This document shows positions 3,853 through 18,064 of a stretch of DNA of 38,482 nt, piece after piece. The notes below the pieces were generated by a model. The model ran no database searches. It had not been told where the DNA came from and was given only the letters and a program-made list of their open reading frames with translations. Both the position numbers and the translations under genes were made by a program. Where the stretch lies: assembly GCA_947630575.1 (NCBI GenBank), contig CANRIB010000010.1, forward strand, positions 1 through 38,482. Direction: 5' to 3'. This DNA is from an uncultured Bacilli bacterium (GTDB lineage: Bacteria; Bacillota_I; Bacilli_A; RF39; UBA660). Each line of letters begins with the position of its first letter. Within the stretch, counting starts at the first letter, position 1.

Positions 3853-4917
3853 ATGAAAAAAACAAAACCTTTATATGCCGATTTAATGGCTAAATATATA
3901 TTTGGGACAGAAGAAAATTTAATATATACTGCTCATCTTTTAGAATTATTTTTCAAATTAGAACCTGGTACTTTAGCTAATGCTACAATTCGCAATAGTG
4001 TTCACCTTTCTCGGGAAACAATAAATAAAAAAGGATTTGAAATGGATATTATCGTGGAATCATCATTTTTAAAAGTTATTAATATTGAATTTTATACTAA
4101 ATATGATTTAAATAGTGAAATAAAATCTTTTATGTATATAGCCAATAAATTTAGTAATAGTTTAAAAGTTGGTGAAGAATATAGTCAAGCTAAAAAAATT
4201 AATCAAATAAACTTTGTTAAAAATAATTTAGTACATCATACAGAAAAAATGATTTCTGAATATTTAATATTAAATAAAGATGATATAGAAGATCAAATGA
4301 TATCAGAATTTTTTCAATTATTTATAGTAGACCTTGACCAAGAAATAAATCAAGATTATAATAATGATGAATTAATGAGATGGATAAAACTAATAGGTGC
4401 TGAAACAGATGAAGAGATGCAAGAAATAGTAAAAGGCAATGCAATGATGGAAGAGGTCTATGAAAAAATGAAAGAATTTAGTCAAGAAGAATGGGTAAAT
4501 GATTATTTTAACAAAGAGAGATTAGTAAAAAGCCAGCATAATTCGGAATTAAGGGAACAGAAAGAAAAATTAACTGAAGAGTTTAACGAGAAAGAAAGAC
4601 TAGTAAGAAGTCAGCATAATTCGGAATTAAGAGAGCAGAAAGAAAAATTAACTGAAGAGTTTAACGAGAAAGAAAGACTAGTAAGAAGTCAGCATAATTC
4701 AGAATTAAGAGAGCAGAAAGAAAAACTAACTGAGGAATTTAATGAGAAAGAAAGACTAGTAAGAAGCCAACATAATTCTGAATTAAGAGAACAGAAAGAA
4801 AAGATGATTGAGAATATGATTCTAAAGAATTATAAACTAGAAGATATTGCCGAGATAAGTAATATGCCATTAAATGCTATAAAAGATATTAAAAAGAAAA
4901 TAGAAGCTCGAAAGTAA
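3853..4917 (+). CDS. Rpn-type PD-(D/E)XK nuclease / putative transposase family protein
   Basis: 354 aa. The first 200 or so residues match the recombination-promoting nuclease family (COG5464-like, PDDEXK superfamily): the opening DLMAKYIFG, then FEMDIIVES with acidic D65 and NIEFY with E79. The usual glutamine two residues after the glutamate is Tyr81 here, so catalysis should not be assumed. Residues 222-318 are four copies of a 26-residue charged, helical unit beginning ERLV(K/R)SQHNSELREQ, probably a coiled coil. The last 35 residues (LEDIAEISNMPLNAIKDI) look like the helix-turn-helix tail common in this family. The gene stands alone, with its own promoter, strong AGGAGG ribosome site and terminator. 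E. coli Rpn proteins promote RecA-independent recombination; no inverted repeats of a transposon are seen here. Confidence 0.8.
   Translation: MKKTKPLYADLMAKYIFGTEENLIYTAHLLELFFKLEPGTLANATIRNSVHLSRETINKKGFEMDIIVESSFLKVINIEFYTKYDLNSEIKSFMYIANKFSNSLKVGEEYSQAKKINQINFVKNNLVHHTEKMISEYLILNKDDIEDQMISEFFQLFIVDLDQEINQDYNNDELMRWIKLIGAETDEEMQEIVKGNAMMEEVYEKMKEFSQEEWVNDYFNKERLVKSQHNSELREQKEKLTEEFNEKERLVRSQHNSELREQKEKLTEEFNEKERLVRSQHNSELREQKEKLTEEFNEKERLVRSQHNSELREQKEKMIENMILKNYKLEDIAEISNMPLNAIKDIKKKIEARK
4516..4806 (+). repeat. 78-bp in-frame tandem repeat inside the nuclease gene
   Basis: Units begin at 4516, 4594, 4672 and 4750, each 78 bases (26 codons); the fourth stops after about 57 bases. The units differ at only a few positions, mostly third-base changes, which indicates recent expansion or homogenisation. 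Copy number could change by slippage or recombination without breaking the frame. Confidence 0.92.
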
Positions 4918-4932
4918 ATTGAGCTTCTTTTT
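4902..4932 (+). terminator. Intrinsic terminator overlapping the nuclease stop codon
   Basis: AGAAGCTC (4902-4909) pairs with GAGCTTCT (4921-4928), followed by a T run. The stem's 5' arm lies within the last codons and the TAA is in the loop. The opposite strand is also fairly T-rich after the hairpin, so it may also end the converging ABC operon. Confidence 0.8.
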
Positions 4933-5554
4933 AAAATTCCTTTTTTTGATAAATTTTTTTAGATATTAAATAAGAAATAAATAAGATTAAGAGAATTATA
5001 ATAGAAATAATATACATTCCATATTGGTTATCAATATTTTTAAGATATTCAGGGATAGTTATATATTTAGAAATTAAGCTAATAAGAAAGATAAAACCAA
5101 AAATAATAACAATTAAAAATATTCTTCCCCTTTCGACTCCATATTTAAAGATTAAAGGAAAACTTAGAGAAATGATTAATAATGCCCCAAATAAGCAACT
5201 ATAGATATTATTATTTAAAAGAGAAATATTTAAAGAATTGGATAACTCGCCAAATATTATACCACCTATATAAGTTAGTAAAATAGCCCAACAAATTATT
5301 AAAATACTGGTTATGTATTTAGCTTTAACAACATTTTTTCTTCCTTTAGGTAAGGTTATAGCATAACTATCCCATTTGTTTATTTCATCATAACTAAAAG
5401 TAGTTATAAAAAGCATCGTACTTATAAATGTTGGTATATAATAAAACATATTATTACCATCAATACTTAAAAAGCAGAATATTAATACAAGTAATAATAA
5501 ATGTTTAATATTGCTTTTAATTACTAATAAATCTTTTTTAATTAATCCTTTCAT
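4931..5554 (-). CDS. ABC-2 type transporter membrane subunit
   Basis: 207 aa, with about six hydrophobic segments and a short basic N terminus (MKGLIKKDLL) typical of small ABC-2 permeases paired with YtrA/BcrA-like ATPases. The start overlaps the ATPase gene's end by 17 bases and has an AAAGGAGC ribosome site, so the two are translationally coupled. It should form the membrane channel of the ABC exporter encoded here. The substrate is unknown; such systems often respond to cell-envelope-active peptides (family knowledge), which the sequence itself does not show. Confidence 0.8.
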   Translation of the reverse strand: MKGLIKKDLLVIKSNIKHLLLLVLIFCFLSIDGNNMFYYIPTFISTMLFITTFSYDEINKWDSYAITLPKGRKNVVKAKYITSILIICWAILLTYIGGIIFGELSNSLNISLLNNNIYSCLFGALLIISLSFPLIFKYGVERGRIFLIVIIFGFIFLISLISKYITIPEYLKNIDNQYGMYIISIIILLILFISYLISKKIYQKKEF

Positions 5555-8147: not shown

Positions 8148-8224
8148 TGGTGTTCTCGGCGGGATTTGAACTCGCGACCTACCCCTTAGGAGGGGGTTGC
8201 TCTATCCAGCTGAGCTACGAGAAC
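8148..8224 (-). tRNA. tRNA-Arg (anticodon CCT), CCA encoded
   Basis: The cloverleaf folds with acceptor GTTCTCG/CGAGAAC, D arm GCTC/GAGC, anticodon stem ACCCC/GGGGT around loop CTCCTAA (anticodon CCT, reading AGG) and T loop TTCAAAT. The discriminator A and the CCA end are encoded at 8148-8151. The T stem (GCGAG/CCCGC) has one A-C mismatch where a G-C pair is usual. It has its own promoter and terminator. In an AT-rich genome this tRNA serves a rare codon. Confidence 0.95.
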
Positions 8225-11840: not shown

Positions 11841-12034
11841 AATAAAAAAAGATGGTTACCAAAGGGCGAAAATTTCGCGGTACCACCTTTTATTGTACTT
11901 ATTAATTTTAACGCATTACTGCGGAAATATTTCAACTCCCAAGCAACCTTCAAAAGTATTACTTATCTTTTTACACCTGATTAAAGACTCTCTTTAAAGT
12001 AATAGTTTTTTACTCCTCTTGTTCTTCGTTTTTC
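11841..12034 (-). promoter_or_regulatory. T-box riboswitch of valS
   Basis: The minus strand carries the T-box core AGGTGGTACCGCG (plus 11876-11888), which would pair with the tRNA acceptor end, followed by a terminator hairpin (GGTGGTACC with GGTAACCATC) and a T run at plus 11843-11850. A 5' stem-I candidate pairs ATTACTT with AAGTAAT further upstream. I could not place the specifier codon with confidence; a valine GUN is expected from the downstream gene. Confidence 0.92.
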
Positions 12035-12040
12035 TAATAT

Positions 12041-16312: not shown

Positions 16313-16963
16313 TTATCTTTTTAAGCTAGAATTGGGTTTTAGTTTTAAGGCTAAATTATTTAGTTCTTTAGGAAAACATAGAACTTCATGAAGTAAAAGA
16401 GAGTTAGTCATGTCTTCATTAGAATTGATATTAGCAGTTAGTTCTTTTAGTTCAGAATTATAAATATAAGATATTTCAAGAACGTCTAAAAGATGGTAAT
16501 AATCTTCTTTTTTTAAAATTAAATTTAAAGTATAATCAAGAACTACTTCTTCACCATTTAATAAACCTAGTAAAAAAGCATGGAGAAATTCAAAATTTCG
16601 TTCAGATTTACAAATAGCAACTCCAATATTTAATTTAGAGTTTAAACTAATGGAGAAAGATTTTTCGTAACATTTTCCATAACGGTTTAAACTGTAAAGT
16701 TCTGGATCTTTATAAAATTCATACATGAGTTTAAAATCTATACCATTAAAATTATACCAATCACCATTTTTTTTAATATGCCATTTTAATCTATTAAGGG
16801 CAGTTGGAGGATTTAAACTAAATTGTTTTAAAACCCATAAAGTTAGTTTTTTAGGTTCTAATGAAATAGGCGCACTCATGTCTTCTTCTTTTCCTTGATA
16901 ATTCATGATAGCATCATATTCTTGAGCTGATACATTGGTGTTTTTGAGAATATATTCGCGCAT
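16313..16963 (-). CDS. Unknown protein with Cys-His-Asp pattern (possible transglutaminase-like fold)
   Basis: 216 aa, not recognised as a named family. C98 in YGKCYEKS, H128 in FEFLHAFLLG and D143 in VVLDYTLN occur in the order and spacing of the papain/transglutaminase-like triad (C at a helix start, H and D on neighbouring strands). The N-terminal 90 residues are helical with a conserved-looking WHIKKNGDWYNFNG. There is no signal peptide or membrane segment, so it is cytoplasmic. It is transcribed alone from a consensus promoter back-to-back with the RNA gene at 17019. The fold is inference. Confidence 0.6.
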   Translation of the reverse strand: MREYILKNTNVSAQEYDAIMNYQGKEEDMSAPISLEPKKLTLWVLKQFSLNPPTALNRLKWHIKKNGDWYNFNGIDFKLMYEFYKDPELYSLNRYGKCYEKSFSISLNSKLNIGVAICKSERNFEFLHAFLLGLLNGEEVVLDYTLNLILKKEDYYHLLDVLEISYIYNSELKELTANINSNEDMTNSLLLHEVLCFPKELNNLALKLKPNSSLKR

Positions 16964-17018: not shown

Positions 17019-17047
17019 TTGACATTTAGAAAAAACTATAGTATACT
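17019..17047 (+). promoter_or_regulatory. Promoter of the tandem-pseudoknot RNA
   Basis: TTGACA (17019-17024), a 17-base spacer and TATACT (17042-17047); start site expected near 17054. The -35 box abuts the divergent promoter, so the two may compete for or share a regulator. Confidence 0.85.
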
Positions 17048-17070
17048 TTAATTGCATTAAATGAAATGCA

Positions 17071-17170
17071 AAATGTTAATCGCTTCCGGATGGTGCGAGT
17101 TATAAATGATTCCGGTCGAGAAATGTTAATCGCTTCCAGGTGGCGCGAGTTATAAATGAGCCTGGTTGAA
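17071..17170 (+). repeat. Two exact-period 50-nt tandem repeats
   Basis: Units at 17071-17120 and 17121-17170, with no indel. They share AAATGTTAATCGCTTCC and GCGAGTTATAAATGA. Most differences fall in the predicted pseudoknot stem and its flanks. Confidence 0.95.
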
Positions 17171-17178
17171 TATGTGGG

Positions 17179-17207
17179 AAAGCTTTATTTTTAATAGAGC
17201 TTTTTTT
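17179..17207 (+). terminator. Intrinsic terminator of the small RNA
   Basis: AAAGCTTTATT (17179-17189) pairs with AATAGAGCTTT (17193-17203) over 11 bp with a 3-base loop, one T-G pair, followed by TTTT. Confidence 0.92.
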
Positions 17208-17215
17208 AATATTTT

Positions 17216-17248
17216 AAAAAATGCAAAAGTTTTAAATTTGCATTTTTA
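17216..17248 (-). terminator. Terminator of the polA-mutM operon, possibly bidirectional
   Basis: AATGCAAA (17220-17227) and TTTGCATT (17237-17244) form a stem with T runs on both strands. It overlaps the mutM stop and could also backstop the small RNA from the other side. Confidence 0.82.
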
Positions 17249-18064
17249 TTTTTGACAGTTTTCACAATAATAAGTACTTCTACCACCTATTTTAATATTT
17301 TTGATTGGTTTTCCACAGATAGAACATGGTTCCCCTTCTTTTTTATGGACTTTTAATTTTTGTTGAAATCTTCCGGTTACTCCTAAGCTTGATGTATAAC
17401 TTTTGATGGTAGTGCCACCCATTTTAATAGCTTCTTTAATTATTTCATTTGAGCCTTTAACAATTAAATCACATTCTTCTTTAGTTAGGCTTCTTGCTTC
17501 TCTTAAAGGATTAATATGAGCATAAAACATTACTTCATTAACATAGATATTGCCTAACCCACTAATAATAGTTTGGTCTAATAAAACTGTTTTAATGGGT
17601 AATTTTTTATCTTTAAATTTTGCTAATAAATACTCACTAGTAAGATTTTTATCGCCTGGTTCTAAGCCTTGTTTAGCAATACTTGGTGTTGTTTCTAATT
17701 CTTCTTTTTTAATTAAATTCATCCGACCAAATTTACGAGTATCATGATATCTTAAAGTGCTATTATCTTCAAATGTAAATATTATATGTTCATGTTTAGC
17801 TTTTTCTTCACTTTTATCTTTAATAAAGAACTTACCTTCCATCCTTAAATGAGATAATAAATACCTGTCTTCAGTTTCAAATATTAACCATTTACCTTTT
17901 CTTTTTATATCTATAAAGGATTTATTTATTAAATCTTTTTTAAAATCTTTAATATTACTTTCAATTATTGGTTCATAAAAAATATCTATGTTAGTTATTT
18001 TTTTATTTAATATTCTTGTTTTTAAAGTATTTCTTACTGTTTCTACTTCGGCAATTTCTGGCAT
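17246..18064 (-). CDS. mutM: Formamidopyrimidine-DNA glycosylase
   Basis: 272 aa; removes 8-oxoguanine and formamidopyrimidines and nicks the strand. It keeps the catalytic N-terminal proline and glutamate (M-P2-E3), the variant MPEIAEVETV instead of MPELPEVETV, Lys58 in RKGKWL, and HDTRKFGRM. The C-terminal zinc finger has cysteines 247, 250, 267 and 270, and Arg262 in GGRSTYYC. It is the last gene of polA - HExxH gene - mutM, with only 2 bases between stop and start; mutM following polA is a common Bacillota arrangement. Confidence 0.96.
   Translation of the reverse strand: MPEIAEVETVRNTLKTRILNKKITNIDIFYEPIIESNIKDFKKDLINKSFIDIKRKGKWLIFETEDRYLLSHLRMEGKFFIKDKSEEKAKHEHIIFTFEDNSTLRYHDTRKFGRMNLIKKEELETTPSIAKQGLEPGDKNLTSEYLLAKFKDKKLPIKTVLLDQTIISGLGNIYVNEVMFYAHINPLREARSLTKEECDLIVKGSNEIIKEAIKMGGTTIKSYTSSLGVTGRFQQKLKVHKKEGEPCSICGKPIKNIKIGGRSTYYCENCQK

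Follow-up and report, generated by a model that had tools for sequence, protein, structure and literature searches.

CptI-Er of Eubacterium rectale (PDB 4RMO), an RNA antitoxin of a type III toxin-antitoxin system, is the only CptI whose structure has been solved. It is an H-type pseudoknot of 45 nt; besides stems S1 and S2, it has a very short loop L1 and a long A-rich loop L2 that adopts an A-minor twist (PMC4627078). Loop residues A29 and U30 are required for antitoxicity, and one repeat suffices (PMC4627078). The cognate toxin, CptN, has endoribonuclease activity: it cleaves its own antitoxin RNA between the repeats and ends up locked together with these monomers as a 2:2 complex (PMC4627078). 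CptI is highly specific: of six non-cognate pairs tested, with toxins 35–44% identical, none was neutralized (PMC4627078). CptIN-Er stabilizes plasmids (PMC4627078, PMC5086642), and a phage disarmed ToxN with pseudo-ToxI repeats (PMC5086642). We found no earlier report of solitary type III RNAs in the open-access literature, where absence is no proof. Here, we analyze an RNA element in the window, the whole 38 482-nt stretch of DNA from an uncultured Bacilli bacterium (genome G000). The element is very probably a solitary CptI-family type III antitoxin RNA, left behind after deletion of the CptN gene from a complete CptIN system.

The transcription unit occupies positions 17019–17207, between two genes on the minus strand:

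17019–17047, + strand: promoter (−35 TTGACA, 17-nt spacer, −10 TATACT), 11 of 12 matches in the scan
17052–17071, + strand: 5′ leader hairpin TTGCATT/AATGCAA (arms 17052–17058/17065–17071), from the MFE fold
17071–17119, + strand: CptI unit 1, with S1 at 17080–17083/17095–17098 and S2 at 17086–17090/17111–17115, from the repeat, covariation, and comparison with CptI-Er
17101–17108, + strand: putative A-minor-twist loop of unit 1, TATAAATG, from comparison with the CptI-Er repeat (PMC4627078)
17121–17169, + strand: CptI unit 2, with S1 at 17130–17133/17145–17148 and S2 at 17136–17140/17161–17165, from the repeat, covariation, and comparison with CptI-Er
17179–17207, + strand: Rho-independent terminator, an 11-pair stem (17179–17189/17193–17203) followed by a T tract, from the fold and its conserved position in relatives
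17205–17215, + strand: deletion scar, from the pairwise alignment of the window with G019; blastn blocks stop and resume nearby
16313–16963, − strand: gene of a 216-aa protein, a flank that marks the insertion site and is not part of the RNA
17246–18064, − strand: mutM, the flank on the other side, likewise not part of the RNA (Pfam Fapy_DNA_glyco and H2TH)

The original prediction had proposed a consensus promoter, a 5′ hairpin, two exact 50-nt units, and an 11-bp terminator. Promoter scan and fold bear out the promoter, hairpin, and terminator, the last of these being visible in the fold and not listed by the promoter/terminator scan. The units do form a tandem pair of direct repeats with a period of 50, each being 49 nt long and the two 86% identical rather than exact copies. 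From this promoter, the transcript would be expected to start near 17054. A TTGACATTT...TATA block lies in front of nearly all related arrays, and relatives carry 5′ hairpins at the same position with different sequences (e.g. GCACTT/AAGTGT). A riboswitch or leader, already judged unlikely in the original prediction, was rejected because the same strand is empty downstream and mutM is convergent. The 216-aa protein had no match in a Pfam search; its gene is present in 6 of 60 related genomes and adjoins mutM in several of those. Elsewhere in the window, a T-box leader (11859–12035, −) and a tRNA gene (8151–8224, −) score above the Rfam gathering thresholds, and both are ordinary.

Both units contain S1 as TCGC/GCGA, and S2 reads CCGGA/TCCGG in the first and CCAGG/CCTGG in the second, so two pairs are compensated between the units while S1 is constant, exactly as originally described. 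The interleaved stems are predicted to form an H-type pseudoknot with a short L1 and a long A-rich L2. The single-strand MFE of the RNA is only modestly below that of shuffles (z = −1.36), because a single-strand fold cannot contain pseudoknots. Covariation was assessed across 62 distinct units from relatives, in which 94.3% of S1/S2 cells were paired, compared with 82.9% in shuffles, and 88 cells had changed on both sides, compared with 29. Double-sided changes occurred in eight of the nine S1 and S2 pairs. The outermost S2 pair is the weak one. None of 500 shuffles covaried as strongly, and the signal vanished when the partners were slid along the alignment, upholding the selection for RNA structure that had been proposed from two units.

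The RNA had originally been presented as an unrecognized class, to be abandoned as such on a match to an Rfam family. Rfam 15, searched at gathering and permissive thresholds, yielded only chance-level matches in the 17019–17207 region. The class is nevertheless a described one, the CptI antitoxin; it had gone unrecognized because no Rfam model matches it and the identifying toxin gene has been deleted at the locus. A search of 100 related genomes recovered numerous homologous arrays, mostly of two units. Many of these are followed by a ~155-codon open reading frame (MKVKTGYIYHIKDEFF...) that begins less than ~100 nt from the terminator. In G019, its product matches the CptN toxin of PDB 4RMO (E = 1.5e-18), and a Pfam search of this protein returned no family match, PF13958 included. 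Conversely, in an independent genome collection, an array lies directly upstream of 77 of the 78 assessable CptN genes (those with enough upstream sequence), with two units in 72 of the 77, three in three, and one in two. Since CptN follows homologous arrays, and an array precedes CptN almost without exception, the RNA is the CptI antitoxin of CptIN.

The array itself agrees with this assignment. It consists of tandem repeats of the kind expected for CptI (~45 nt, usually two), and the loop TATAAATG, present in both units, is identical to CptI-Er positions 28–35, including A29 and U30. The loop motif ATAAAT occurs in 42 of 49 toxin-linked and 37 of 45 solitary units. Linkage to a CptN gene is found in relatives, including at the syntenic G019 locus. 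A complete CptIN has CptN directly downstream of the terminator; at the window locus the toxin segment is absent and mutM comes next on the opposite strand, which makes the locus a solitary CptI rather than a CptIN system. A separate small RNA class unconnected with toxin-antitoxin systems would fit the missing Rfam match and the missing toxin, and is almost certainly not the answer given CptN behind homologous arrays (77/78); synteny with a complete CptIN in G019 in essence refutes it.

The history of the site can be read from relatives. In G019, the same neighbors (mutM, the 216-aa gene, and a HIGH-nucleotidyltransferase gene) enclose a complete CptIN. The pairwise alignment is near-identical across promoter, both units, and terminator; the window then lacks ~490 nt of G019, comprising the ribosome-binding site and the whole 158-aa CptN gene, and the alignment resumes at the CptN stop codon. 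The window genome is a single draft assembly of 62 contigs, and one contig supports the deletion. In G025 and G013, the site is empty, with ~55 nt from mutM to the 216-aa gene. From these empty, complete, and toxin-deleted states of one site we infer insertion followed by toxin loss. A complete CptIN (promoter, two units, terminator, and CptN gene) probably entered the mutM/216-aa intergenic space in an ancestor of the window species and its sister G019, and the window species then lost the CptN gene from just behind the RNA terminator. Between the window and G019, the array is identical at 94 of 99 positions, compared with 146 of 223 fourfold-degenerate sites in four neighboring genes (Fisher p = 2e-9). 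Of the five array differences, two lie opposite each other in S2 pair 17138/17163, as a compensated change between G-C and A-U. Array conservation and this compensated pair therefore point to structural selection on the RNA for the greater part of the period since the species diverged, selection that may predate the toxin loss.

A transcript of ~150 nt should still be made and fold into two H-type pseudoknots. If a matching CptN entered the cell or was expressed in it, the toxin would cut the RNA between the units, and each released unit would bind and block it. By inference, the window RNA would neutralize a CptN closely resembling the G019 toxin and, most tentatively of all, keeping it would benefit the cell.

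Toxin-less arrays are not confined to this locus. A covariance model of the units detected arrays in 25 of 36 genomes of the genus and in at least 72 of 291 sampled genomes of the family, a survey that covers only model-recognizable arrays and favors intact ones. In other genera, the arrays among the matches listed were accompanied by an intact toxin in 41 cases, a broken one in 12, and none in 24 (one of these 24 at a contig edge); among these matches, toxin-less arrays are nearly as common in the family as complete pairs. One site in the genus, beside a PPDK-type gene (PEP-utilizers_C domain), displays a series of states: G007, G026, and G028 have an intact toxin, G030 a frameshifted one, and G008 a truncated one, and the toxin is gone in G004, G016, G020, and G024, with two units left in G004 and G016, one in G020, and a scrap of the array in G023. 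Solitary arrays mostly retain promoter and terminator. No CptN-like frame was found in their examined flanks, and a different gene family taking the place of CptN was rejected, as the genes behind them vary or are ordinary neighbors, including a DnaB-type replication gene, rpsL, and a gene for a small membrane protein.

Some toxin-less arrays have three or four units, and some consist of unit types that were never found beside CptN. Two solitary arrays upstream of rpsL (L147, G017:C34; L149, G025:C74) share such a unit type, CCGCCACTAGATGG.... The arrays are near-identical between the two species, whose flanks have diverged beyond alignment. The idea of a conserved solitary subtype was dropped, as within the genus only these two species carry it; among 386 sampled family genomes, the CCGCCACTAGATGG pattern gave one match, with two mismatches. 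Toxin-less arrays of about four units, instead of the usual two, occur at L138 (G027:C102), where two unit types alternate, and at G287:C20:11142-11338. In G007 and G031 (L071 and L082), an extra single CptI unit lies just behind CptN, leaving the toxin flanked on both sides.

The window genome carries further type III loci. On its contig C2, an intact CptN gene is accompanied by a two-unit CptI of its own; this toxin shares 55.5% identity with that of G019, which is cognate to the window locus, and the C2 units have 2 extra nt between S2 and S1 relative to those of the window. A single-unit CptI with promoter and terminator (L033 114–162, −; G000:C23) adjoins a small HTH-like regulator gene, the absence of a toxin there being uncertain as the contig ends ~100 nt past the unit. 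The genome also holds a complete ToxIN, with three ~36-nt tandem repeats (AAAAAAGCGGTGAACCCAGCCATAAGTTGGGAAAT; L032, about 1316–1440) and a ToxN gene (L031, G000:C25:9522-9998; PF13958, E = 2.5e-49). A scan of viral contigs found one, L260 (IMGVR_UViG_3300011008_002676), that bears a complete CptIN (4550–5240) rather than a solitary array. This conjugative-looking contig encodes a HerA/VirB4-like ATPase, which suggests that CptN travels on mobile DNA and makes an antidote role plausible.

Why the RNA is kept can be answered in several ways. We give roughly even weight for and against its being an inert relic of a module that dies toxin-first, because the antitoxin cannot safely go before the toxin, with a useless leftover RNA in decay that is not yet visible. 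All stages of such decay coexist at the PPDK-type site, from intact pairs through G030, G008, G004/G016, and G020 to G023, and some arrays are degenerate. However, all eight tested pairs are kept in 40 of 45 solitary units, as often as in toxin-linked ones (46 of 49, p = 0.47), and the orthologous solitary arrays G025:C96 and G015:C1 still agree at ~90% of positions and differ by a compensated change in S2, although their flanks align poorly. Survivorship bias weakens both of these objections. The toxin of that orthologous pair may have gone only after the species split, and the toxin at the window locus may be a recent loss, in which case conservation of its array would date from before that loss.

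It is possible, if leaning towards doubtful, that the RNA is instead selected as an anti-addiction or anti-defense antidote, kept to neutralize the CptN of mobile elements and so prevent them from holding the cell hostage. The complete CptIN beside the HerA/VirB4-like ATPase, plasmid stabilization by CptIN-Er (PMC4627078, PMC5086642), and the phage pseudo-ToxI repeats directed against ToxN (PMC5086642) argue for it, as do the solitary arrays of genomes where no CptN was detected, such as G027 and G014, since some of these exceed two intact units. The narrow specificity of CptI in the non-cognate pairs of PMC4627078 speaks against it, and the CptN of the mobile contig is only 56% identical to the toxin cognate to the window locus. 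The same specificity makes it improbable that the RNA serves in trans as an extra antitoxin gene for the intact C2 toxin of its own genome, a similarly distant protein whose own units differ; moreover, several genomes with solitary arrays have no detected CptN. Retention of the pseudoknots suggests an antidote function, and plain decay is at least equally compatible with the evidence. That solitary CptI arrays are common, selectively maintained antidotes against conjugative-element CptN in uncultured gut Bacilli appears rather unlikely to us.

The analysis gives the identity CptI to an RNA invisible to Rfam, and adds 62 covarying units and a toxin-linked set to a natural CptI collection of which few members had been characterized. 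A single site in empty, complete, and toxin-deleted states illustrates how a type III module dies, and the frequency of toxin-less antitoxin RNAs prompts one to ask if these are relics or serve as RNA antidotes to incoming toxin copies on mobile elements.

Among known systems, the window RNA most resembles CptI-Er, with which it shares two tandem repeats of 45–50 nt, a predicted H-type pseudoknot with a short L1 and a long A-rich L2, the identical loop octamer UAUAAAUG, an A in the junction between units, a terminator behind the repeats and, in the window's relatives, a toxin homologue behind the array. It differs in the deletion of the toxin gene, unit length (49 vs 45 nt), L1 (2 vs 1 nt), and stem sequences; a 5′ hairpin precedes its units, and none is described for CptI-Er in the consulted text of PMC4627078. 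ToxI and AntiQ (of ToxIN and AbiQ) follow the same type III layout, in which tandem pseudoknot repeats are followed by a terminator and then the gene of an endoribonuclease, yet membership in the ToxI/AbiQ family was rejected: their repeats are 34–36 nt long rather than 50 and have a different fold, and the toxin linked at the G019 locus lacks PF13958. As an antitoxin without its toxin and a possible shield against incoming homologous modules, the locus also parallels the solitary antitoxins and anti-addiction modules of type II systems, which are proteins, whereas the antitoxin here is an RNA.
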